IMG/VR virus record: IMGVR_UViG_3300027976_000197
Location: 1-25,444 of that record
Length of the DNA: 25,444 nt
Direction: 5' to 3' (one strand)
DNA from: a virus
The notes under the pieces are model-generated. The model was not told where the DNA came from, ran no database searches, and saw only the letters and a program-made list of their open reading frames with translations. The position numbers and the translations under genes are program-made. The first letter of the stretch is position 1, and each line of letters starts with the position of its first letter. Shown piece after piece: positions 5,434 through 25,304 of this stretch.

Positions 5434-5455
5434 ATTAAAATATTGGGATATTTAA

Positions 5456-6196
5456 ATGAGACCTACATCACGAAAAGAATTTAAAGAGTATTGTTTACGT
5501 AAACTTGGTGCTCCAGTCATTGAAATTAATGTTGATGATGATCAAGTCGAAGATAGAATAGATGAAGCAATAAGTTATTATTGGGATTATCACTTTGATG
5601 GTTCTGATAAGACGTATTATCGTCATCAAATAACTGAGACTGATAGAACTAATAAGTATATTACTCTACCAGAAAATATCATTGGTGCTGTTAGTGTGTT
5701 TCCACTTGGTGATCCATCTATAAGCTCTAATGATTTATTTAATATCCAGTATCAGATAGCTTTAAATGATCTTTACACACTAACATCAGTTTCTATGGTT
5801 CCATATTATATGACAATGGAACACTTATCGCTTATTAGTGAAATACTGGTAGGTAAAGTTCCAATACGATATACTAGACATAAAAATAGACTTTATATAG
5901 ACATGGATTGGAATAAAACAATAACTGTTCAATACATATTAGTAGAAGCATATGAAGTAATTAATCCTGATGTTTACATCGATGTGTGGGCTGACAGATG
6001 GCTACAAAATTACACCACTGAAAAAATTAAATATCAATGGGGTCAACATCTTACCAAATTTGTTGGAATGTCTCTTCCAGGTGGAGTTCAGTTTAACGGG
6101 CAGCAGATTCTGATGGATGCACAACAAGCTATAGAAAAACTAGAATCGGAAATGATAACATCATACTCATTACCGGTCACTGATATGGTAGGATAA
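5456..6196 (+). CDS. gp13: Neck protein gp13 (head completion)
   Basis: This 246-residue protein matches the gp13 neck family in size class (somewhat shorter than T4 gp13), composition and position immediately before genes 14-17. Its N-terminus ('SRKEFKEYCLRKLGAPVIEINVDD') and the Trp/Tyr-rich segment 'YIDVWADRWLQNYTTEKIKYQWG' are recognisable features of gp13 in marine T4-like phages. In T4, gp13 and gp14 form the neck that closes the filled head at the portal and accepts the tail. A GGGAT sequence precedes the ATG at suitable spacing, and a TATAAATA late promoter lies just upstream. gp14 follows after 10 bases. Confidence 0.85.
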   Translation: MRPTSRKEFKEYCLRKLGAPVIEINVDDDQVEDRIDEAISYYWDYHFDGSDKTYYRHQITETDRTNKYITLPENIIGAVSVFPLGDPSISSNDLFNIQYQIALNDLYTLTSVSMVPYYMTMEHLSLISEILVGKVPIRYTRHKNRLYIDMDWNKTITVQYILVEAYEVINPDVYIDVWADRWLQNYTTEKIKYQWGQHLTKFVGMSLPGGVQFNGQQILMDAQQAIEKLESEMITSYSLPVTDMVG

Positions 6197-6206
6197 CTTA
6201 TATCTA

Positions 6207-6929
6207 ATGAGTAATCTTTACTTTAATAACTACAACAATTCGCAAGAACAGCTTCTCATTGAAAATCTTATCATTGAGAGTATTAATATTTACGGACATG
6301 ATATTTACTATGTTCCTAGAATTATCATGAATAAAAATGAAGTGTACGGTGAAGATAATGTTTCTGAATATAGAAATCCATATTTCACAACAATGTACAT
6401 AAGATCATATGACAATTATCAGGGTGATGGTACTTTCTTATCTAAGTTTAATCTAGAAATTAGAGATCAAATGGTGTTCTCTGTTGCACAGAGAGTATTT
6501 GCTGAAGAAGTTGGTAATGAAAGTGATCTTATAAGACCTCAAGAAGGTGATCTTATCTGGTCTACAGTGCTTAAAAGACTTTTTGTAGTTATGTACGTTG
6601 ACAAGAAAGCTATATTTTATCAAATGGGTGCACTTCAGTTGTATGATTTAACATGTGAAGTCTTCGAATATTCAAATGAGAAATTAAGAACTGGTGTAGA
6701 AGAGATTGATAGATTAGAAACAAAATATTCATTTGATATAGAAGATCAAGGAATATTAACAAATGACGGATATACTATATCAGACAATCTTGGATATAGT
6801 TTGATAAACTCAGAATTTGATCATGATACTCAATTAACAGATTGGTTCTCTGATAATGATGAAATAAGCGAAGAAGCATCTATTATAACAGATTGGTCTA
6901 CTAGAGATCCTTTCAGTGAAGGAATTTAA
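6207..6929 (+). CDS. gp14: Neck protein gp14
   Basis: This 240-residue protein is close to T4 gp14 in length and lies in the conserved 13-14-15 order. The N-terminal 'EQLLIENLIIESINIYGHDIYYVPR' and the internal 'NPYFTTMYIRSYDNYQGDG' fit the gp14 neck family. It should form the ring between the gp13 layer and the tail terminator gp15. The C-terminal quarter is acidic and low in complexity ('DWFSDNDEISEEASIITDW'). Its start has little Shine-Dalgarno sequence, so it may depend on coupling to gp13, 10 bases upstream. gp15 begins 3 bases after its stop. Confidence 0.85.
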   Translation: MSNLYFNNYNNSQEQLLIENLIIESINIYGHDIYYVPRIIMNKNEVYGEDNVSEYRNPYFTTMYIRSYDNYQGDGTFLSKFNLEIRDQMVFSVAQRVFAEEVGNESDLIRPQEGDLIWSTVLKRLFVVMYVDKKAIFYQMGALQLYDLTCEVFEYSNEKLRTGVEEIDRLETKYSFDIEDQGILTNDGYTISDNLGYSLINSEFDHDTQLTDWFSDNDEISEEASIITDWSTRDPFSEGI

Positions 6930-6932
6930 CTA

Positions 6933-7748
6933 ATGTTTGGTCAAATTTTCACAAATAGATCTATTAGAAAATACGTCATATTTTTTGGTTCATTGTTTGA
7001 TAATGTATATCTTACGAGGGATAATGCCTCTGGTGAAAGACAACAGACAATGAAAGTTCCACTCAATTATGGACCCAAAGAAAAATTTCTAGCTAGACTA
7101 GAAGGCAATCCTGATTTGGATAGAGAAATTGCTCTACAATTACCGAGAATGTCTTTTGAAATAACAAATATGTACTATGATTCTACAAGAAAGCTTTCTT
7201 CTGTTGGCATTATTAGATGTCCAGATCCCAATGATAAGAATAAGGCTACTTATAGATATAATCCACTTCCATACAACATTGATTTCGATTTAAATATTAT
7301 GACGAAAAGTATTGAAGACGGATATAGAATATTAGAAACAATTCTTCCATTCTTTGGACCAGAATTTACTGGCACATTAAAAATATTTGATGATGCGTCA
7401 TATGATATTCCAGTAGTGCTAAGAAGCACGAATCATACAGATTCATATGAAGGTGAATTTACAACTCGTCGAGCTCTTATATGGACACTGTCATTTACTC
7501 TTAAGGGATATCTATTCGGTCCTACTAGAAGTGGTGGAGTTATTAAGCAAGCTGAAATTAGTATTAAAATACCACCAGAATTTTCAATGATAGACGAAAC
7601 AATGCCGCCATCAGTATTTGTAACCACAACACCTGGTCTGACTGCAAACGGTGAGCCAACTACAGACCCATCAACAACTATTGATAAGAGTTTAATTGGA
7701 CCAGACGATAACTACGCATATATCGTAGATATAATGGAGACAATATGA
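6933..7748 (+). CDS. gp15: Tail terminator / sheath stabiliser gp15
   Basis: This 271-residue protein is almost the length of T4 gp15 (272). The opening 'MFGQIFTNRSIRKYVIFFGSLF' and the segment 'YRILETILPFFGPEFTGTL' are typical of the family. gp15 forms a hexameric ring that caps the tube and sheath and joins the tail to the neck. The last about 60 residues ('KIPPEFSMIDE...' onward) are Pro/Thr-rich and probably flexible. Its stop overlaps the gp16 start by four bases (ATGA), implying translational coupling to the terminase genes. Confidence 0.88.
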   Translation: MFGQIFTNRSIRKYVIFFGSLFDNVYLTRDNASGERQQTMKVPLNYGPKEKFLARLEGNPDLDREIALQLPRMSFEITNMYYDSTRKLSSVGIIRCPDPNDKNKATYRYNPLPYNIDFDLNIMTKSIEDGYRILETILPFFGPEFTGTLKIFDDASYDIPVVLRSTNHTDSYEGEFTTRRALIWTLSFTLKGYLFGPTRSGGVIKQAEISIKIPPEFSMIDETMPPSVFVTTTPGLTANGEPTTDPSTTIDKSLIGPDDNYAYIVDIMETI

Positions 7749-8206
7749 AAAAAGATTTAAATAAATCATTAGATTTATCACCCAATGCATATGATACTAA
7801 AGATGGTGTGGATAATATTAAAAATGTTCCAGCTATTGTTGATGCAGACTGTGAGGTTGTGAAATCTGAAATTGAAGAAGATATCGACAATAGTAGAAAT
7901 TCAATTTATGAATTACTTGACATCGCAAACGACGCGATTGCTGACATGGTAGATATTGCTAAACAATCTCAACATCCTAAAGCATATGATACGTTAAACA
8001 GTATGCTTAAAACTACAGCAGGTCTTTATAAGGATATACTTGGTGTTCAGAGTAGAAAGAAAGAGTTGATGAACAACACTAACAATCAACCACAATCTCC
8101 AGAAACTGATGGTGCTATTCATAACACACAGAATATATTTGTGGGTTCTACGACTGAACTTCAAAATCTTTTAAATGATATGAGAAAGGATAAAGATGGA
8201 AGTTAG
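7745..8206 (+). CDS. gp16: Terminase small subunit gp16
   Basis: This 153-residue protein matches T4 gp16 (164 residues) in size, position and architecture. An acidic N-terminus is followed by a long helical central segment ('NSIYELLDIANDAIADMVDI' and 'AYDTLNSMLKTTAGLYKDIL') that in the family forms the oligomerising coiled coil, and then a flexible tail. gp16 forms rings that recognise DNA and regulate the gp17 ATPase and nuclease. It overlaps gp15 by 4 bases and the first terminase fragment by 11 bases. The gp17 ribosome binding site (AAGGA) lies inside this gene. Confidence 0.88.
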   Translation: MKKDLNKSLDLSPNAYDTKDGVDNIKNVPAIVDADCEVVKSEIEEDIDNSRNSIYELLDIANDAIADMVDIAKQSQHPKAYDTLNSMLKTTAGLYKDILGVQSRKKELMNNTNNQPQSPETDGAIHNTQNIFVGSTTELQNLLNDMRKDKDGS

Positions 8207-8579
8207 AGGTTATAACGGTAATCCATTACTCAAAAAGCCAAGACAGAGTCACAATTGGTCACCAGAGCAAGTTAAAGAATGGGTAAAGTGCGCAAATGAT
8301 CCAATCTATTTCGCGCAGACATACATAAAAATTGTTCACGTTGATCGTGGACTCATTCCAATTGATTTGTATGATTACCAAGAAGAAATCATTAATAAGA
8401 TAACAAATAACCGTCGAGTTACTGTTGTAACATCTCGTCAGGCCGGTAAGTGTGTCGAAGCTTCAACAGTTATAAATATAAGAAACAAGTTAACCAATAA
8501 AATACAACGAATGTCGGTGGGTGAATTTTATGAAATACAAAAAGCACATAGTGAGAATGATACTGAAGATAAGAAATGA
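8196..8579 (+). CDS. gp17: Large terminase gp17 fragment 1: N-extein (to Walker A Lys) + N-intein 1
   Basis: This 127-residue product has two parts. Residues 1-85 are the N-terminus of a T4-type TerL: 'HNWSPEQVKEWVKCANDP', 'YDYQEEII' (adenine-binding/Q-motif area) and the Walker A 'SRQAGK', which stops at the Lys. Residues 86-127 begin with Cys and read as intein block A ('CVEASTVINIRNK', then 'MSVGEFYEI') before a TGA. The missing Walker A Thr is the first residue after the C-intein at 9920. The product therefore cannot be an active ATPase alone; it should be joined in trans to the 9548 product. The N-intein is unusually short (42 residues) and lacks block B. AAAGGA precedes the ATG inside gp16. 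A chance frameshift does not explain the clean Cys...His-Asn/Thr boundaries. Confidence 0.93.
   Translation: MEVRGYNGNPLLKKPRQSHNWSPEQVKEWVKCANDPIYFAQTYIKIVHVDRGLIPIDLYDYQEEIINKITNNRRVTVVTSRQAGKCVEASTVINIRNKLTNKIQRMSVGEFYEIQKAHSENDTEDKK
8451..8576 (+). other. Split intein 1, N-half (Walker A insertion)
   Basis: It starts at Cys (TGT 8451-8453), directly after the Walker A Lys, and ends at TGA 8577-8579, giving 42 residues. Cys1 is the nucleophile expected for the first acyl shift. Only block A and the next strand/helix ('RMSVGEFYEI') are present; block B (TxxH-like) is on the C-half. This is the atypical early split position. Confidence 0.9.
8471..8478 (+). promoter_or_regulatory. Late-promoter-like TATAAATA inside N-intein 1
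   Basis: This is an exact match to the octamer found upstream of genes 13, 18, 19 and 67, but located within N-intein coding sequence (residues VINI). It lies 51-78 bases before the possible starts of the endonuclease gene. The AT richness makes chance matches possible. Confidence 0.4.
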
Positions 8580-9555
8580 TATTCATACATTTTCAGATTT
8601 AAGAACCATCATCGCAATGCAACAATATGGAATCAAAAGAGTGGTGGGTCGAAGTGATAATATGGCCAGGATAATGAAATCTGGATTATCCTGGCAGCAC
8701 AGGATCGTGTGGATGAAAAATATAAATTCCTATATAGGTAAGAAGGGTGAAAATGTTGGTTGGTTAACAGTCGTGCATAATGATAATGGTGAATATGCCC
8801 ATGACACAATTAGTATGAAATCTGAAAGATGGTCGAATAAAAACAACCCCGGCCACAACCATGGTGGTAGACTATCAGTATACTCTAAAAATAATCCAAA
8901 ATTTAATGCTAAAGCTGCTGAAGTTGCAAAACTAAAAAACAAAGAAAAACAATTAAATGGTTCTTCAATCAGAACACTTCAATATTGGATTAACAAAGGA
9001 TATCCTATTGAAGAAGCTAAAATCAAACTATCTGAACATCAAACGACATTCAGTCTTAAAAAATGCATAGGTGAACATGGTAAAGAGATGGGTCTTGAGA
9101 GATGGAATGAACGCCAAACCAGGTGGCTGAATACACTTAACAACAAAACACAAGACGAAATTGATGCAATTAATATTAAAAAGGCATCAAAAATAAATTA
9201 TAGAACATTGTGGTCGAATAAAATTGATCATCCAGGAAGACTTTATTTAATAAAAATTGGTGATAATCTAAAAATAGGTATTACTACAAAAACTATAAAT
9301 GAAAGATTCTCGCGATGCGGGCTTGAATACAATATTATTGTAGATGATGAAATGAATATTGGTAAGGCGTTTGAGCTTGAGCAACTTACATTAAGAATAT
9401 TTAAGAATTACAGATTTTCCACTAAAGTAACTACAGAAAATTTTAAATATGAATGTTTATCAGAACTATTAATTTTTTTAGAAAAAAATTCTCAAAGAAG
9501 TTACGAATCATTAAATGAAGAATTAAGAAACATAATAAGAGAAAACAATGCATAA
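8557..9555 (+). CDS. Homing endonuclease inside split intein 1 (C-terminal GIY-YIG/T5orf172-like domain)
   Basis: A basic protein (332 residues from ATG 8557) lies between the two halves of intein 1. The N-terminal about 90 residues are unassigned ('VGWLTVVHND', 'YAHDTISMKSERW'). Next come modules I recall from phage homing endonucleases: 'NNPGHNHGGRLSVYS' and 'KKCIGEHGKEMGLERWNERQ', probably DNA-binding. The last about 100 residues carry a GIY-YIG-like core of the T5orf172/MUG113 type: 'LYLIKIGDNLKIGIT', the Arg in 'INERFSR', and a later acidic position. The start is uncertain: GTG 8521 and ATG 8530, 8557 and 8617 share the frame, and none has a strong ribosome binding site; the first two lie deep in N-intein coding. 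The stop overlaps the C-intein 1 start by 8 bases. Its likely role is homing to intein-free terminase genes, by analogy. Confidence 0.75.
   Translation: MILKIRNDIHTFSDLRTIIAMQQYGIKRVVGRSDNMARIMKSGLSWQHRIVWMKNINSYIGKKGENVGWLTVVHNDNGEYAHDTISMKSERWSNKNNPGHNHGGRLSVYSKNNPKFNAKAAEVAKLKNKEKQLNGSSIRTLQYWINKGYPIEEAKIKLSEHQTTFSLKKCIGEHGKEMGLERWNERQTRWLNTLNNKTQDEIDAINIKKASKINYRTLWSNKIDHPGRLYLIKIGDNLKIGITTKTINERFSRCGLEYNIIVDDEMNIGKAFELEQLTLRIFKNYRFSTKVTTENFKYECLSELLIFLEKNSQRSYESLNEELRNIIRENNA
8665..8695 (+). repeat. Perfect 11-base inverted repeat in the endonuclease gene
   Basis: GCCAGGATAAT (8665-8675) pairs perfectly with ATTATCCTGGC (8685-8695) around a 9-base loop. The first arm includes the AT of an in-frame ATG at 8674, and another ATG lies at 8662. 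The hairpin could hide an internal start or act as a regulatory or processing site. No T-run follows, so it is not a terminator. Confidence 0.6.
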
Positions 9556-9919
9556 ACTTTCAGAAACAGTAGAGCGCAAATTTGTAGCATCTTTTGATGT
9601 TGATGAATGGGAAATTGAAACTGATACTGGTTGGGAAGACATTTCAGCTATCCATAAAACTATAGTATATGATGAATGGAAAATTGAAACATCATCCGGT
9701 AAAAAATTAATGTGTGCTGATAATCATATCCTTTTTGATGAAAATTTAAACGAAATATTTACTAAGAACTGTAAACCAAAAGTAACTCATATTATGACTA
9801 AAGATGGTCCAGAATTGGTATTTAAGTGTAATAAAACTGAAAAATCATCTAATATGTATGATATTACTGTAGACAGCGACAATCATAGATTCTATACTAA
9901 TGATATTTTAAGTCACAAT
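9548..9919 (+). other. Split intein 1, C-half
   Basis: It is 124 residues from ATG 9548 to Asn at 9917-9919. Visible blocks are B ('WKIETSSGKKLMCADNHILF', with His as catalytic block B residue), F ('MYDITVDSDNHRFYTNDI') and G ('LSHN'), followed by +1 Thr at 9920. The penultimate His and terminal Asn needed for Asn cyclisation are present. A strand pair before block B ('WEIETDTGWEDIS') belongs to the part normally on an N-intein. Confidence 0.92.
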
Positions 9920-11029
9920 ACTACAACTGCAGCATGTGTGATTCTCCATTATATATTATTTAACGAAGTAAAGCTTGTGGCTTTACTTGCACAGAAGGGT
10001 GATGCTGCTCGAGAAATTTTAGACCGTGTTAAGTTATCATATGAATCTTTACCTGACTGGTTACAACAAGGTGTTGTTTCTTGGAACAAGGGTTCTATTG
10101 AATTAGAAAATGGTTGTAAAGTTATTGCAGCTGCTACATCATCTTCAGCTATTCGTGGTAAATCTGTTAACCTATTGTACATTGATGAATGTGTAGAAGG
10201 CAATTCTTTTGTGTGTGTAGAAATTAAAGATAGATATTTTTATTCTAAAATTGCAGATTTTATAAATATAAATGAAAGCGACTTCATCAATAAGATTGTG
10301 AATAATATGAGTGCAGCAATTTATAAAACTATCAATAAAATAAACGGTAAAGAATATGTAGGTTTACATAGAATATCATCTCCAGATATTCTATACGAGA
10401 TGAGTGAAAGTGGGTCAATTTTTTCCGATGGATATCTAGGGTCTGGTATTAGAATAAAAGATGCTATAGTAAAATATGGCCCAGAAAATATGAGACAAGA
10501 ACTAATATTCTTTTCGGATGATATTAATAAAGTTTCAAATTACGAAGAAATGATAGTTACAAAGGAATACGTAAAGAATGATAATACTTATAATCTCAAA
10601 GTAGGTGGATTAAATTACATCTTAACAGAAACACAGAGGTTGAGTAAGGGTGATAAAATAAAGCATTGGATTCGTAATAACCCAGAAAAACATAAAGAAA
10701 GAATGGATAAAATTAATAAAAATCCAGACAAGATTGCTAAAACTGCGGCCAAACATAGTGGTATGAAAAGATCAGCCGAAACAATAAAAAATATATCTGA
10801 ATCATTGAAGGGCAGTATCCCATATAACTTAGGTAAGAAATATATGCACAATTCCGTCACCGGTGAGATACAGGAATTTGACAGTGAATTACCAGCCGGT
10901 TGGAAATTAGGGACTGGGTGTTCTAATGGGCCTAAAAATAAAAAAGCTTATTTTAATTCTGAAACTCTTCAAATTAAGTTTTACGTTGAAGACTCCGAAC
11001 CGTTTGGTTGGAGTCTAGGAAGAAAATGA
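9548..11029 (+). CDS. gp17: Large terminase gp17 fragment 2: C-intein 1 + middle ATPase extein + N-intein 2 fused to GIY-YIG endonuclease
   Basis: This is a 493-residue composite. Residues 1-124 are C-intein 1, with block B 'SGKKLMCADNH' and the end 'YTNDILSHN'. Residues 125-214 are terminase: 'TTTAACVILHY' completes Walker A, and the segment ends at Walker B 'LLYIDE'. Residues 215-253 are N-intein 2, starting 'CVEGNSFVCVEI'. From Met254 a GIY-YIG nuclease follows in frame: 'AIYKTINKINGKEYVGLH', 'YLGSGIRIKDAIVKYG', the Glu of 'NYEEMIVTKEYV', and 'YNLKVGG'. A NUMOD3-like 'HSGMKRSAETIKNISESLKG' and two 'GW.LG' modules follow. The nuclease could be made as a fusion or start separately at ATG 10307. 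ATG 9548 overlaps the upstream endonuclease stop; the TGA overlaps the next start (ATGA). After splicing on both sides only 90 residues remain in the mature terminase. Confidence 0.92.
   Translation: MHKLSETVERKFVASFDVDEWEIETDTGWEDISAIHKTIVYDEWKIETSSGKKLMCADNHILFDENLNEIFTKNCKPKVTHIMTKDGPELVFKCNKTEKSSNMYDITVDSDNHRFYTNDILSHNTTTAACVILHYILFNEVKLVALLAQKGDAAREILDRVKLSYESLPDWLQQGVVSWNKGSIELENGCKVIAAATSSSAIRGKSVNLLYIDECVEGNSFVCVEIKDRYFYSKIADFININESDFINKIVNNMSAAIYKTINKINGKEYVGLHRISSPDILYEMSESGSIFSDGYLGSGIRIKDAIVKYGPENMRQELIFFSDDINKVSNYEEMIVTKEYVKNDNTYNLKVGGLNYILTETQRLSKGDKIKHWIRNNPEKHKERMDKINKNPDKIAKTAAKHSGMKRSAETIKNISESLKGSIPYNLGKKYMHNSVTGEIQEFDSELPAGWKLGTGCSNGPKNKKAYFNSETLQIKFYVEDSEPFGWSLGRK
10190..10306 (+). 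other. Split intein 2, N-half (Walker B insertion)
   Basis: It starts at Cys (TGT 10190-10192), immediately after the Walker B Asp-Glu. About 39 residues read as block A ('CVEGNSFVCVEI', 'YFYSKIADF') before the frame continues without a stop into the GIY-YIG endonuclease at Met254. Block B is absent here and present on the C-half at 11026. Confidence 0.87.
10261..10268 (+). promoter_or_regulatory. Late-promoter-like TATAAATA inside N-intein 2
   Basis: An exact TATAAATA in the coding sequence for 'FINI' of N-intein 2 lies 38 bases before the ATG (10307) that could start the GIY-YIG endonuclease alone. It resembles the element in N-intein 1. Function is inferred only. Confidence 0.4.
10307..11026 (+). 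other. GIY-YIG homing endonuclease domain with NUMOD3-like tail
   Basis: These are 240 codons in frame with N-intein 2. The GIY-YIG catalytic signature is complete in variant form: Tyr of 'IYK', 'YVG', Arg in 'GSGIRIK', and the Glu/Asn region 'EEMIVTKEY...YNLKVGG'. A basic NUMOD3-like region (about 10700-10840) and two copies of a short module ending 'GWKLG' and 'GWSLG' should bind DNA. It could be translated as part of fragment 2 or from its own ATG at 10307. Confidence 0.85.
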
Positions 11030-11322
11030 AAATCTTAGGTATTGAAGAGTTTGTAGAATTTGAAGGGTTTAAAGAAACTGGAATTAAAAGATGTCTAAAA
11101 ATTATTTTTTTAGACGGATCAAATTTCACGTGTTCAGAAAATCATGCAATAAAGATATCTGATAATAAAGAGTGGTCTTTAGCAAGAGAACTGATTGTAG
11201 GCGATGATCTTAACAGTAAGTCTATAAAAAGTATAGAATCAGTAGGGAATACTCAAACATATTCTCCAATAAATGTTGGAACAGACTTTACTTATTATTC
11301 ATCTGGTTTTTACAATCACAAT
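11026..11322 (+). other. Split intein 2, C-half
   Basis: It is 99 residues ending 'FYNHN' at 11320-11322, followed by +1 Cys (11323-11325). Block B 'SNFTCSENH' has the expected Cys/Thr...His arrangement. His-Asn at the end supports C-terminal cleavage. It is shorter than C-intein 1 and clearly different from it in sequence. Confidence 0.92.
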
Positions 11323-11697
11323 TGTGCGTTTGTCGAAAACTGGGATGAGTTCTTTGCAGCTGTTTTTCCAACAATTTCTTCTGGTAAAACAACAAAAATT
11401 CTATTCACGTCTACTCCTAATGGATTAAATCACTTCTATAAGACTTGTATGGGTGCTAGAGATGGTTCTAATGGTTACCAATATGTTGAAGTGCCGTGGC
11501 AACAAGTTCCTGGTAGAGATGAAGAGTGGAGAAAAGAAACGCTCGCGGCTATGGACTTTGATCTTGAGAAATTTGCTCAGGAATTCGAATGTGTAGCTGG
11601 TGATAGTATGATAGATATTATGAACATAGAAACTAATGAAGTATTCAACATACCAATATCTAGCTTTTATAATTGGGTAATGTTGGAAAATTCATAA
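11026..11697 (+). CDS. gp17: Large terminase gp17 fragment 3: C-intein 2 + ATPase extein + N-intein 3
   Basis: This product is 223 residues from ATG 11026. That start is preferred to the GAG-overlapping start at 11008 because AGGA lies 5 bases upstream and the ATG overlaps the endonuclease TGA (ATGA). Residues 1-99 are C-intein 2: block B 'DGSNFTCSENHAIKI', a block F region 'YSPINVGTDFTYYSSG', end 'FYNHN'. Residues 100-188 are terminase: 'CAFVENWDEF' continues Walker B, then 'ISSGKTTKILFTSTPNGLNHFY' contains the coupling motif, up to 'FAQEFE'. Residues 189-223 are N-intein 3 ('CVAGDSMIDIMNIE', 'IPISSFYNW'), ending at TAA. The fragment therefore has intein halves at both ends, must splice on both sides, and contributes 89 residues to the mature enzyme. 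Confidence 0.92.
   Translation: MKILGIEEFVEFEGFKETGIKRCLKIIFLDGSNFTCSENHAIKISDNKEWSLARELIVGDDLNSKSIKSIESVGNTQTYSPINVGTDFTYYSSGFYNHNCAFVENWDEFFAAVFPTISSGKTTKILFTSTPNGLNHFYKTCMGARDGSNGYQYVEVPWQQVPGRDEEWRKETLAAMDFDLEKFAQEFECVAGDSMIDIMNIETNEVFNIPISSFYNWVMLENS
11590..11694 (+). other. Split intein 3, N-half (ATPase-nuclease junction)
   Basis: It is 35 residues from Cys (11590-11592) to the TAA at 11695-11697. It starts 'CVAGDSMIDIM' after extein 'QEFE'. The insertion point and very short N-half correspond to what I recall of the AceL-TerL split intein (25-residue N-intein, found in a metagenomic phage terminase), which also follows an EFE-type sequence. Confidence 0.88.
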
Positions 11698-11731
11698 TTA
11701 ATAAATATTTTAGACAAAAGAGGTATTAGGT
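11698..11731 (+). promoter_or_regulatory. Intergenic break of intein 3: TTAATAAATA promoter-like element and ribosome binding site
   Basis: The two intein 3 halves are separated by only 34 bases. TTAATAAATA at 11698-11707 is identical to the decamers before gp22, gp23 and the gene at 22234. AGAGG at 11719-11723 is a good ribosome binding site for GTG 11732. There is no room for an endonuclease. Confidence 0.6.
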
Positions 11732-12013
11732 GTGAAGACTTCACGTAAGTATATGATACTCACACCAACTGGGTGGAGTAATTTTTCTGGAATAAGAAGA
11801 AAACACTCTACTAATGTTATTAAAATTGATGACGGCATCGCGACATTAAAGTGTACAAAAGATCATCTAATTAAAATAGATGGAAACTTTACACAAGCTC
11901 AACATCTAATTGAAAAATTTACAATAACAGATGAATCTTCTCAAGATGTATACGATATCTTAGATGTCGAATTAAATAACGAATATATTACAAATGGATT
12001 TATTAGCCACAAT
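11732..12013 (+). other. Split intein 3, C-half (AceL-TerL-like)
   Basis: It is 94 residues ending 'FISHN' at 12011-12013, followed by +1 Cys (12014-12016). 'MILTPTGWSNFSGI' and 'YITNGFISHN' resemble what I recall of the AceL-TerL C-intein ('KILSPNGFSNFNGI', 'YITNGVVSHN'). Block B is 'LKCTKDH'. The terminal His-Asn and +1 Cys are present. Confidence 0.9.
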
Positions 12014-12853
12014 TGTGCATGGCTTGGTAGTTCTGGTACACTGATATCTGGTGCTGTACTAAAAACTCTAGTTGGTCAAATTCCAATTAAAGCTCACGAT
12101 GGGCTTAAAATGTATTTCGAACCAGACCCGCTTAGAAAATATACCATGACTGTAGATACGTCACAGGGCAAGGGTTTAGACTATTCTTCGATACAAATCA
12201 TAGATATAACTGAAATGCCATACCAACAGGTATGTACTTTTAAAAACAATCTCATGACGCCAGGCGATTTCTCTGAATTAATTTTCAGAATGAGTAAGAC
12301 ATATCACGATGCTACCATATTGATAGAATTAAATGATGTAGGACATACAGTCGCAGAGACCATCTATAATGAATATGAAGCAGAAACTCTAATTTCAACT
12401 GAAAGTGCTGGAGCTAGAGGTAAAAGAATATCAGCTGGATTTGGTAAATCATCAGAGAAGGGTATTAGAGTATCAAAATCTGTTAAAGGATTAGGTTGTT
12501 CTGTACTTAAATTGTTGATAGAACAGCGCCAACTTATCATTAACGATCATGATACTATTCATGAATTGTCACGATTTTCTAAAAAGGCCAATTCCTATGA
12601 AGCAGAATCTGGAGCACATGACGATTTAGTTATGCCTCTAGTCATATTTGCATGGATGACTGATCAGCAATACTTTAAAGATCTTACAGACATAAATACT
12701 CTAATGAAACTCAGAGATAAAACTGAAGATCAGTTGATGAATGAACTAAGTGGATTTGGATTTGTGGACGATGGAAGTTCGTATCATCAAGAAGAAGATA
12801 CAATAATTGATATGACAACTGACTTTCGTCAAGAGTTCCGCGGGCTTTTTTAA
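11732..12853 (+). CDS. gp17: Large terminase gp17 fragment 4: C-intein 3 + nuclease-domain extein
   Basis: This product is 373 residues from GTG 11732, chosen for the AGAGG 8 bases upstream; ATG 11753 is the alternative. Residues 1-94 are C-intein 3: 'MILTPTGWSNFSGIRRK', block B 'ATLKCTKDHLIKI', end 'YITNGFISHN'. Residues 95-373 are the terminase C-terminal part, opening 'CAWLGSSGTLISG'. The RNase H-like nuclease residues are intact: D142 in 'TMTVDTSQGKGLDYSS', E199 in 'ILIELNDVG', and D297/D298 in 'AHDDLVMPLVIF'. These would cut concatemeric DNA during packaging. Summed exteins (85+90+89+279) give 543 residues, near other T4-like TerLs (T4: 610). GGCTT/AAGCC around the stop could form a small hairpin. 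Confidence 0.93.
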   Translation: MKTSRKYMILTPTGWSNFSGIRRKHSTNVIKIDDGIATLKCTKDHLIKIDGNFTQAQHLIEKFTITDESSQDVYDILDVELNNEYITNGFISHNCAWLGSSGTLISGAVLKTLVGQIPIKAHDGLKMYFEPDPLRKYTMTVDTSQGKGLDYSSIQIIDITEMPYQQVCTFKNNLMTPGDFSELIFRMSKTYHDATILIELNDVGHTVAETIYNEYEAETLISTESAGARGKRISAGFGKSSEKGIRVSKSVKGLGCSVLKLLIEQRQLIINDHDTIHELSRFSKKANSYEAESGAHDDLVMPLVIFAWMTDQQYFKDLTDINTLMKLRDKTEDQLMNELSGFGFVDDGSSYHQEEDTIIDMTTDFRQEFRGLF

Positions 12854-22205: not shown

Positions 22206-22233
22206 ATAAATAAATATAAAAAGGCGAGTGTTC

Positions 22234-24423
22234 ATGGATTTACAATTACTTATAGAAAACTACTTACTACTTGAAAACGCGAAAAGAATAGATTTTCTAA
22301 ACGATCACTTTAAAGATGGATTTGATACTAGTCACGATACGCTTGCTAAACATACAGAGACAAAGGATATCATTAATCACTTTGCAAAGAAAGCTGATCC
22401 TACTTCTAATAAATCGCATAGTCAATGGGTTCTAAATCAGTATAAGCAAGGAAACATCCGTCAAGAAGATGCTGGCAGTATCAAGAAAACATTAAAAGAT
22501 TTTGATAAATCTAAAGATCATCTCGAAAAGAAAGATATCAATCAATATAAACATGTTGCTGATTTAAGAGATGCTGTTGTTTCTAAAGTACAAATTGCTA
22601 ACGACAAAGAAAAAGAGAAGAAGAAACTTGCTGATAATAAAGGCGAAGATCTTCACCAATTATATGACAAAGATGGAGTAACTGGTTTTAAAATACCGAA
22701 TAGAGAATCATCTATTCGTAATTATGGTGCTAATGGTACTAAATCCAAAACAAATTGGTGTACAGCAGCAAATTCAACAAACAATATGTTTAACCACTAT
22801 AAGGGTGGTAAGTACACTATGCATTTTCCTAATGGACATGTTCTCCAATTTCACCATCAATCAAGACAGATTATGGATGAAAAAGATGTACCTGTAGATT
22901 CAAACGATCCCAGATATCATGACAACCTGAATCATGTTAATGATTTCTTAAATCACACGCATGAATTAGAGAAACACCCAGATACAAATCTTAAAGACAA
23001 GTATAAAAGATATAGCCCTGAAGAATCCAATGAACATATGAACAGACTTGTTAAAGGCGAGTCTAACTATCAACATGAGAATGCTTTAGACAATATAATT
23101 TCTAATAATAAATTGTCTAAAGAACATGTCGCGGCGCTGACAGATCATAATGGTAATTATAATCTGGAAAAGCATTATAACAAATATCTTAAAAAGAATC
23201 CTCATGTTAATGCAAACGGCATACCCGAGGATGATTGGAAACACTTAGCTGCAAATGAGCACAGAAGTTCTGATATGCTCCATCATGAACTAGACAATCT
23301 TGATAAATATCATCCAAATGCATCTTCGAATAATCGCATTAATGACTATGCTACAACAATTCAAAGCGCCCATAATAGAAATGATGATCATCTAACAAAA
23401 ATATTAAATAACCCCAAATTTACGGATTCTTTGACAGGGGCGGTGTTTGATACTAATGCAAAAAATGTATCTCATACAAATCAAGAAAAATACGCATCGA
23501 TGTCACCAGAAAATACTAAAAGAGTTTTAAACAATCAAAAAGACATAAGTCCAAAATTATTAGACGTTGGGTCGAAGGAATATCCAGAAGAATTTTCTAA
23601 ACATATGATGAAGCCCGAATCTGCCGACAATTTACATCAACATCACTTTGAAAATATATTAAAATCGGGTGATGAGTTGTTAAATAGAAATCCTAATGAT
23701 CATGACACACATCACACTATATCAAATATTACTAATCATATATTACACACTAAAAACCCAGAGGCCGATGGATATAAAGCATCAGCAGTGAATTTATTTC
23801 ATAATATGCTTTCACATGATAAAAATAAAGAGAAGCTGTACTCCAATCACGCTTCTAATTCGGTTCTCACGTCAAATAAACTTAGTAAAGATGACGTAAA
23901 TTCTTTATGGGATGCTACTAAAGATAACAATCCAGCGAGGTCGGAACTAGCTAAAAACGATAAAATTGATGGAGATAAATTACACGATCATATCGATGGT
24001 GGTAATGCCAGGGCTGATATCATAGATAATAAAAACATTAAGGGCGAACATTTAGAAAAGTTAATTAAAGACGCATACAACCCTGAAAGAATACTAGACC
24101 ATAAGAAATTTGATCATGAAAATATGAATAGATCATTCTCTGACGCTAAAGACCATGGCCTCGTCGGTTCTATGTTGCATCATCCAAAGGTTACACAAAC
24201 TATGCAAATGAAAGCATTGACAACTCCACATCAACATGCTCACTTAAGTTCATCACCATTCACATCGCCATCAATTTTACATAAATTGGCGGACTCTCCA
24301 GTTACATTTATTAGAAAGAATGTCGCACAACATAAAAATACAGACAATGATACGTACAAAAAACTTCTAAATGACAAAGATAGTGAAGTAAGCGAAATTG
24401 CAAACAAGAAGGTAAAACACTAA
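22234..24423 (+). CDS. Large His/Asn/Lys-rich protein with WCTA-type domain and degenerate repeats
   Basis: This protein is 729 residues from ATG 22234. The GTG at 22228 is only 3 bases after the AAGG site, so the ATG is preferred. The N-terminus is short and hydrophobic-helical ('LQLLIENYLLLENAK'), then charged. Residues about 140-225 contain 'TNWCTAANSTNNMFNHY', 'GGKYTMHFPNGH' and 'RQIMDEKDVPV'; I recall this pattern (WCTA...N.F..Y...G.LY...D..D.P) from uncharacterised phage proteins. The remaining about 500 residues are loosely repetitive helical units, and the end ('LHKLADSPVTFIRKNVAQH', 'LLNDKDSEVSEIANKK') resembles leucine-rich-variant/HEAT-like repeats. It is soluble, with no signal peptide. 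A packaged internal protein or host-directed effector is possible, but function is unknown. Its own promoter element lies upstream, and it shares TAATG with the next gene. Confidence 0.8.
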   Translation: MDLQLLIENYLLLENAKRIDFLNDHFKDGFDTSHDTLAKHTETKDIINHFAKKADPTSNKSHSQWVLNQYKQGNIRQEDAGSIKKTLKDFDKSKDHLEKKDINQYKHVADLRDAVVSKVQIANDKEKEKKKLADNKGEDLHQLYDKDGVTGFKIPNRESSIRNYGANGTKSKTNWCTAANSTNNMFNHYKGGKYTMHFPNGHVLQFHHQSRQIMDEKDVPVDSNDPRYHDNLNHVNDFLNHTHELEKHPDTNLKDKYKRYSPEESNEHMNRLVKGESNYQHENALDNIISNNKLSKEHVAALTDHNGNYNLEKHYNKYLKKNPHVNANGIPEDDWKHLAANEHRSSDMLHHELDNLDKYHPNASSNNRINDYATTIQSAHNRNDDHLTKILNNPKFTDSLTGAVFDTNAKNVSHTNQEKYASMSPENTKRVLNNQKDISPKLLDVGSKEYPEEFSKHMMKPESADNLHQHHFENILKSGDELLNRNPNDHDTHHTISNITNHILHTKNPEADGYKASAVNLFHNMLSHDKNKEKLYSNHASNSVLTSNKLSKDDVNSLWDATKDNNPARSELAKNDKIDGDKLHDHIDGGNARADIIDNKNIKGEHLEKLIKDAYNPERILDHKKFDHENMNRSFSDAKDHGLVGSMLHHPKVTQTMQMKALTTPHQHAHLSSSPFTSPSILHKLADSPVTFIRKNVAQHKNTDNDTYKKLLNDKDSEVSEIANKKVKH

Positions 24424-25304
24424 TGGATATAGAAATTCACGGCAGAAAAACAGACAAGCACCCGGGTTTTACTCATGAATTTTATGATAAGAGTACTGGT
24501 GAACCAATCCTTCATGCTAAAAAGAGTGACTATGGAGACAATATATATTCGTCAGAACCACATAAAGATTTTTTAGCAGCGCATAAACACGTATTATTAC
24601 CACATCTTATCGGAGACATGTCTAGACATAATCTCAAGCCCGATCATATACGCAATAAAGCATATCAAGCACTCAATAGGGCTTATAAGGAACATTATAG
24701 CGCTGATGAACCAAAAACATCATATACACATGAAGGAGTTCATCATTTTAAAAATAGTAATGGTGATAAATTAAAATATGAAAAATATGCGCTTCATGAC
24801 AAAGACAAAAAACACATATTAGACTTCTACACTGAAAAAGCACCAGGGCTTTTAGGATCCGGTACACCGATTAAACATATAGTAAAAAATGATGACTATG
24901 AGGGAATTCATCACTACGATACTGCTAAAGTGAAACATTCACGACTTAATGTAGATAATATGAAAAATATAGGCGATTATATCCACGAGCTTAAAAATAA
25001 ACCAGAACCAAGATTTGTTGGAGCCAATTCGGCATCAGCTCAACACAAAACATTCAAAACAAGTCTACCCCAGAAAGAAGCTATTGATGCATTCACATCA
25101 CATTTACTGGATAAAAATTCAGATTTAGATTTACATTCTAAGAGCGAACATGGAAGTGTATTGAAAACAAATGCTGAAAAGGCTGGTCAATATGGGACGA
25201 GAAACACACACATGATTCACTATATGGATGGACATATTCATCATACAGTATCAAATGATAGTAACTCTATATCTAATTCTACTATCATAGAATCGGCGCA
25301 ATAA
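24423..25304 (+). CDS. His/Lys/Asn-rich protein of unknown function
   Basis: This 293-residue protein starts within the stop of the upstream gene (TAATG), so the two are very likely co-translated partners. Composition is similar: many His, Lys, Asn and Asp ('KHIVKNDDYEGIHHYDTAKVKHSRLN'). 'HIRNKAYQALNRAYKEHY' may be a helix, and 'YMDGHIHHTVSND' lies near the C-terminus. No known family, catalytic motif, signal peptide or membrane segment is visible. A late gene with this position and composition could encode an internal or minor virion protein; this is only inference. A hairpin terminator follows the stop. Confidence 0.75.
   Translation: MDIEIHGRKTDKHPGFTHEFYDKSTGEPILHAKKSDYGDNIYSSEPHKDFLAAHKHVLLPHLIGDMSRHNLKPDHIRNKAYQALNRAYKEHYSADEPKTSYTHEGVHHFKNSNGDKLKYEKYALHDKDKKHILDFYTEKAPGLLGSGTPIKHIVKNDDYEGIHHYDTAKVKHSRLNVDNMKNIGDYIHELKNKPEPRFVGANSASAQHKTFKTSLPQKEAIDAFTSHLLDKNSDLDLHSKSEHGSVLKTNAEKAGQYGTRNTHMIHYMDGHIHHTVSNDSNSISNSTIIESAQ

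Follow-up and report, generated by a model that had tools for sequence, protein, structure and literature searches.

How could a phage assemble its packaging motor when the gene for it is broken into four open reading frames (ORFs)? This question is raised by terL, the gene for the large terminase (TerL), which occupies positions 8196-12853 of the plus strand in a 25,444-nucleotide stretch of viral DNA (IMG/VR record IMGVR_UViG_3300027976_000197, positions 1 to 25,444; hereafter the window). The record is fragmentary (25 kb). A preliminary description of the window had proposed that one T4-type TerL is made from four polypeptides by way of three split inteins, and our analysis supports this reading of terL. 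We consider it very probable that three split-intein invasions of an essential T4-type terL have left the gene in four pieces, and that the protein is rebuilt through three predicted trans-splicing reactions. The phage would produce the polypeptides E1-N1, C1-E2-N2-endonuclease, C2-E3-N3 and C3-E4 (E, extein; N and C, intein halves). Each N-intein would pair with its own C-intein and ligate the neighbouring exteins, and the three reactions together would yield a TerL of 543 residues. Both the splicing and the correctness of the pairing are what we infer from the features set out below.

The four exteins (85+90+89+279 residues) join into a single T4-type TerL (gp17), with matches to Terminase_6N and Terminase_6C and with ATPase and nuclease motifs once joined. 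T4 gp17 (3EZK) matches the joined extein with E=3.8e-112 over residues 6-493 and with zero gaps at the three joints, the larger gaps of the alignment falling away from them. The same holds for the 59 distinct TerLs of our survey that are encoded by one uninterrupted ORF (57-79% identity), since none of the 59 alignments has a gap within 4 residues of any joint. The preliminary description had named this alignment as a check on its proposal, and the proposal passes it. The top phage-record matches of the joined extein are intact TerLs of Sinorhizobium phages, e.g. phiN3 and phiM12 (55.8%). As had been claimed, joining restores Walker A (residue 80 onwards, SRQAGK|TT), Walker B (residue 170 onwards, LLYIDE), the coupling motif (TSTPNG) and motifs of the nuclease domain.

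The position of the breaks is telling. Joint 1 parts the Walker A Lys from the next Thr, and joint 2 lies immediately after the Walker B Asp-Glu; in T4 numbering these are presumably K166|T167 and E256|C257. Joint 3 falls a few residues ahead of GSSGTLISG, near what we assume to be the boundary between the ATPase and nuclease domains. A complete ATPase site is found in none of the four pieces. Because the P-loop Lys and Thr are parted and the second cut follows the Walker B Asp-Glu, the unjoined pieces should lack ATPase activity, and splicing would be obligatory. Among the 59 uninterrupted relatives, the residue after joint 1 is Thr in 58 and Ser in one. Joint 3 falls within E|C in 53 of them, the others having C|C (four), C|V (one) or E|N (one). 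After joint 2 these relatives have Ala (48) or Thr (11) and never Cys, the residue found in the window. Cys would serve as the splicing nucleophile here, which is suggestive but no more.

The anatomy of the gene and its joints can be read directly from the DNA, and the coordinates, lengths and residues agree with those first reported. Extein piece 1 (8196..8450, 85 residues, placed by alignment) ends in the Walker A Lys and runs into N-intein 1 (8451..8579 with its stop codon, 42 residues), which begins with Cys1 and is 54.8% identical to N-intein 1 of a second triple-split lineage (L107, described below) and 41.9% identical to the start of the contiguous intein of phage BX-1. The first homing endonuclease frame (HEG1, 8521..9555) overlaps both this N half and C-intein 1 (9548..9919, 124 residues), which ends in SHN before T. 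Extein piece 2 (9920..10189, 90 residues; Terminase_6N, 7e-11) has the Walker B Asp-Glu as its last residues and continues into N-intein 2 (10190..10306, 39 residues, Cys1). This half, whose end we place by the Met at 10307, is fused in frame to the second homing endonuclease (HEG2, 10307..11029). C-intein 2 (11026..11322, 99 residues, terminal NHN then C) starts with an ATG that overlaps the HEG2 stop (ATGA). Extein piece 3 (11323..11589, 89 residues, placed by alignment) holds the coupling motif and is followed by N-intein 3 (11590..11697 with its stop codon, 35 residues, Cys1), which is exactly missing from a close relative (L005, see below). ORF 4 starts at GTG 11732 or ATG 11753, giving C-intein 3 (11732..12013, terminal SHN then C) a length of 94 or 87 residues, and ends with extein piece 4 (12014..12853, 279 residues; Terminase_6C, 1.4e-9), the nuclease domain.

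At all three breaks, then, the N half opens with Cys1, the C half closes with His-Asn before Thr, Cys and Cys respectively, and the two halves lie on separate polypeptides, as in split inteins. In profile searches the C halves are homologous to solved inteins; the N halves are too short for a library search by themselves.

Intein 1 (42+124 residues) corresponds, in split form, to a Walker A TerL intein known from the Vibrio phages Kuja, BX-1 (Ackermannviridae) and VPALA. It shares with them the insertion point (GK|T) and 41-46% identity over the C half; unlike it, their intein is contiguous and single, whereas intein 1 is split and one of three. Its family profile also matches gp41-1 inteins (E=3.7e-13). 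A search with C-intein 1 matched 311 of 50,697 phage records, part of which were inspected. Inteins 2 (39+99 residues) and 3 (35+94 residues) combine a short N half with homology to CatC, and belong with the atypical split inteins named Cat, AceL-TerL and GOS-TerL (PMC11766414; papers cited here by PMC number are drawn on in excerpt). C-intein 2 matches CatC (6DSL) with E=7.3e-7 by itself and with E=3.6e-18 in a profile that adds three relatives, and the intein 3 family profile matches CatC (6DSL, E=3.9e-17) and VidaL (8.5e-10). The closest relative of C-intein 3 (64%) is C-intein 3 of L236, on a contig shared with L107.

A tree of 61 C-inteins, based on 97 columns and with half of its forks open, sets all 40 site-1 members on one side of a branch (100/99), with those of sites 2 and 3 intermingled. 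On this evidence the gene contains inteins from at least two lineages. Intein 3 of the window forms a supported trio with intein 3 of L236 and the long-branched site-2 intein of L191. All three inteins are of known families, a point beyond the reach of the preliminary description. Among the site-1 members, contiguous Walker A inteins are nested among split ones, so that fusion of a split intein, or repeated splitting, may have occurred there. Across the survey described below, HN|[CST] occurs in 78 of the 80 interruptions found in distinct sequences, and the first N-intein residue in the 63 testable cases at sites 1 and 3 is Cys (60), Ser (2) or Thr (1). At site 3 of L161 and its relatives, a Ser1 N-intein goes with a Cys after the C-intein, which resembles the nucleophile pair of GOS-TerL (PMC11766414).

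The arrangement is not confined to the window. Its nearest relative, IMGVR_UViG_3300027848_000260 (L005 and L024 in our survey), is 98.8% identical over 7.7 kb and carries inteins 1 and 2, and its joint 3 is seamless, i.e. an allele with an empty site. A single split intein, at joint 3 only, is found in L003 and L004, and L006-L016 have no terL inteins. Two records that differ at 3 of 12,600 positions (L106 and L107) represent a second, diverged triple-split lineage, with joints 1 and 3 as in the window and the middle break 8 codons upstream (GKS|C); both triple-split lineages retain the splicing residues. In L026 and L027 the gene is split at joint 1 and at the upstream middle site and has a contiguous intein at joint 3. 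Further contigs with the same kind of arrangement, and relatives with uninterrupted genes, had been suggested as something to look for; both exist.

Our survey table holds 263 sequences in 172 distinct groups, of which 104 were classified at all three sites (L242 included). The remaining 68 were classified at no site (38) or at one or two (30, two of them, L001 and L002, being pieces of the window). Uninterrupted genes make up 58 of the 104, and four groups are interrupted at all three sites, two of them wholly split (the window; L106/L107) and two split, split and contiguous. At least two split sites occur in nine groups, L242 excluded; one of the nine (L202/L203) has an unclear second site, its site 2 being without a clear His-Asn. 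As several queries were themselves inteins, the scans took the best 80 of 283, the best 80 of 456 and the best 80 of 452 confirmed places, and 68 groups are incompletely classified, these counts are no frequencies. The window is one of at least two triple-split lineages inside a TerL intein hotspot. L242, a viral contig of 340 kb, has a split site-3 intein and, in two places, sequence similar to the N-terminus of TerL; a site-1 call for it was rejected as spurious, the intein ends being missing there.

Comparison of the window with L024 bears on whether the intein halves are in use. Changed codons in the exteins are 30 synonymous and 0 nonsynonymous (piece 4 up to 12630), those in inteins 1 and 2 are 5 and 0, and those in gp16 are 3 and 0. 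The two endonucleases have 2 synonymous and 5 nonsynonymous changes with a micro-inversion masked (3 and 7 unmasked). By Fisher's test against the endonucleases, again masked, the difference has a probability of 2.5e-5 for all spliced parts and 0.028 for the inteins alone. The synonymous-only changes in the inteins, set against those in the endonucleases, suggest that the intein halves are maintained and the endonucleases are not. The micro-inversion lies in HEG2 (window 10374-10390), where L024 has the reverse complement over 17 bases with inverted-repeat ends (ATATC/GATAT), and it also appears as a minus-strand match. Against L107, pN/pS is 0.22-0.35 for the exteins, 0.33-0.43 for N1, C1 and C3, 0.50 for N3 and 0.46-0.53 for the endonucleases, values that are indicative only, since dS is infinite or above 1 in all parts and synonymous sites are near or at saturation.

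Divergence between the window and L024 varies along the sequence. Across 5450-11540, which spans inteins 1 and 2 with their endonucleases, 23 of 6060 positions differ with the inversion masked (30 of 6091 unmasked), compared with 27 of 670 at 11541-12630 and 57 of 1558 before 5450; the flanks are about 4% different. This suggests a recent shared tract, arising by transfer, around inteins 1 and 2 and ending about 50 bases before joint 3, a boundary set by eye after viewing the data. The pattern could equally mean that intein 3 was gained or lost together with its flanking DNA, and the direction of any co-conversion is not polarisable.

Several observations count against trans-splicing. The selection counts are small, and C2 shows weak constraint against L107 (pN/pS 0.79), a non-allelic comparison between inteins at different insertion points. 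C-intein 2 also sits on a very long tree branch. Thr is usual in intein block B, and inteins 1 and 2 have Ala and Ser there. C2 and C3 are of one family (30% identity over 76 residues), so that cross-pairing is conceivable. T4 carries Cys after joint 2 without an intein, and the window Cys is therefore no proof of splicing. A 25 kb fragment leaves room for an intact terminase elsewhere in the genome, and the L026 record has a third, sub-threshold Terminase_6N match (E=3.6e-4) apart from its terL.

The last two points would suit an alternative that we regard as unlikely, namely that the fragments act non-covalently, or that an intact TerL copy lies elsewhere, the intein halves being relics of a decaying gene. 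A precedent for the former is a ribonucleotide reductase that is split by an endonuclease gene and works as two peptides (PMC10448857). Cuts that part the Walker A Lys from its Thr and that follow straight on the Walker B Asp-Glu nevertheless speak against this, and the one through the P-loop in particular is hard to reconcile with non-covalent function. Relics would not be expected to show synonymous changes only, as inteins 1 and 2 do between the window and L024 while their endonucleases do otherwise, nor to retain splicing residues in both triple-split lineages. In the 77 kb L107 record, moreover, terminase profiles match the pieces of the split terL alone.

It is highly improbable that the breaks are an artefact of sequencing or assembly, with contiguous inteins broken by indels or a chimeric contig. 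The HEG2 stop (11027-11029) and the start of C-intein 2 are a single frame step apart, and an error of one base could fuse the two. Yet ATGAAAAT is the start of C-intein 2 in six of six loci inspected, and the overlap of the C-intein ATG with the stop of the endonuclease is shared by L107 and L026. Breaks 1 and 2 are repeated in L005, a separate record, the second lineage is present in two records, and N halves that close in a stop codon recur at many of the split sites inspected. A frameshift was rejected because the start overlap recurs and a second lineage exists. Excision of the gaps from the mRNA as RNA introns with endonuclease genes, for which ICP1 phages that splice their terL transcript beside an endonuclease gene offer a model (PMC10448857), is no more credible and was rejected, as the window has zero Rfam matches at E<=1 and the gaps are flanked by coding intein halves, with C parts homologous to solved inteins, for which an RNA intron would have no use.

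The endonuclease genes at breaks 1 and 2 probably spread inteins 1 and 2 by homing. Each lies between the halves of its intein, the gene at break 2 being fused to the N half. HEG2 is a GIY-YIG (SegE-like) enzyme by its match to the PHROG homing endonuclease family (E=1.3e-20) and, each below its cut-off, to SegE_GIY-YIG (5e-4) and NUMOD3 (0.0028). HEG1 has zero Pfam matches at E<=1 and in PHROG matches only weakly a family with no assigned function (E=0.048). Its L107 counterpart (49.9% identity) matches MUG113, presumably a GIY-YIG relative, above the cut-off, and the nuclease type of HEG1 is taken from this homologue as its own Pfam match is missing. Break 3 contains no endonuclease gene, only 34 bases lying between 11697 and 11732; intein 3 may have lost one or may never have had one. 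At joint 3 of L003 and L004 an ORF does lie between the halves, and that of L003 is a GIY-YIG protein by PF01541 above the cut-off.

HEG2-related endonucleases at L107:5015-6004 (53% identity) and L026:6723-7661 reside in inteins 8 codons from site 2 of the window, so related endonucleases appear to go with different intein insertions in one region of the gene. The first two thirds of the site-1 ORF of L026 match HEG1 (34% over residues 3-224) and its end differs; by eye, this end has a Vsr-like appearance. A GIY-YIG-like endonuclease ORF is also found at the start of gp18 in L017 (L017:287-916), where the window has no such ORF. Its first five residues, MPFQV, are those of the window gp18, as if the gp18 start had been taken over. 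L017 comes from the same sample as L005 and begins 6 bases past its end in window coordinates.

Split terminases also occur in named phages, whose records were inspected in part and whose isolation status is taken from records and names. In Yersinia phage TG1 and in Shewanella phage Thanatos-2, two frames encode TerL and the break is at YIDE|C, the N-intein opening with Cys1 and the C-intein closing with His-Asn before CAF. Like the window they are split at joint 2; unlike it, theirs is a single split and the endonuclease is Vsr-like by eye. In Vibrio phage K469 the split is at joint 3, and the N-intein is fused with a HEG2-like endonuclease, the arrangement that intein 2 has in the window. 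Vibrio phage VmeM-32 combines a joint 1 C-intein with a contiguous intein at joint 2. C-inteins are also present in SCTP-2 (joint 1) and Campylobacter phage F341 (joint 2), in both of which only the C half was located. Going by such isolates, a phage can apparently grow with a split terminase.

The preliminary description likened the locus to the fractured genes of Dassa et al. (2009), reportedly essential genes with a split intein and an endonuclease, of a Vsr-like family, at the break. The likeness holds for breaks 1 and 2, each with a split intein and an endonuclease in an essential gene. It fails in that the window has three breaks, the third without an endonuclease, and in that HEG2 is GIY-YIG by PHROG and Pfam and HEG1 is homologous to a MUG113 protein, neither being Vsr-like.

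Known TerL inteins differ in other ways. AceL-TerL and GOS-TerL are phage TerL split inteins with N halves of 25 and 37 residues (PMC11766414). The window resembles them in its short N halves (35-42 residues) and long C halves and in the match of inteins 2 and 3 to CatC (6DSL), but each of them is described singly in the excerpted text, whereas the window holds two such inteins and a third of another lineage in one protein. The insertion site of AceL-TerL is presumably EFE|C. Comparable, too, are mycobacteriophage TerL inteins, which occupy the P-loop Lys|Thr, Walker B and C-motif sites in the ATPase domain; five were shown to splice and two have endonuclease activity (Kelley et al., 2016; PMC5050341). 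Unlike those of the window they lie at other sites and in other phages, and that paper describes no split intein, the word split being absent from its text. A crAss-like phage TerL similarly has more than one intein, but as three in-frame fragments with two inteins between them and, as far as the excerpt goes, no separate polypeptides (PMC7886860). A TerL intein is also present in phage Maynard (PMC3868846). Among the literature matches listed there was no report of a natural gene with three split inteins, which is weak evidence of novelty as the subscription literature lay mostly outside coverage. The four-piece TerL is a new, extreme variant of the fractured-gene and split-intein arrangement, extending it to four polypeptides for a single essential motor.

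We put forward tentatively, and think it rather doubtful, that C1-E2-N2 and C2-E3-N3, the two products in the middle, are tandem trans-splicing segments of natural origin. Both have halves of two different inteins at their ends, and the outcome would hinge on pairing fidelity. If so, and if pairing is faithful, three mutually orthogonal split inteins would have evolved, and the obligatory three-step assembly would delay or gate the packaging motor. If pairing is leaky, skipped (E2-E4) or circular E3 products would be expected. Three split inteins, each short in its N half, must here work alongside one another in the same cell; they offer a natural test of orthogonality and possible tools for multi-segment protein assembly. 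Related phages with 0, 1, 2 or 3 interruptions, split or contiguous, open their stepwise accumulation to study, and the near-identical relative with its empty site allows homing and cost to be measured.

Two further regions of the window deserve mention. Two long ORFs follow the major capsid gene (22228-25304), with no Pfam or PHROG matches at E<=0.1; the first of them contains TNWCTA. The segment 2362-5417 encodes a tail fibre with collagen-like repeats and, after it, a 2OG-Fe(II) oxygenase (phrog_61) that may hydroxylate the fibre repeats.

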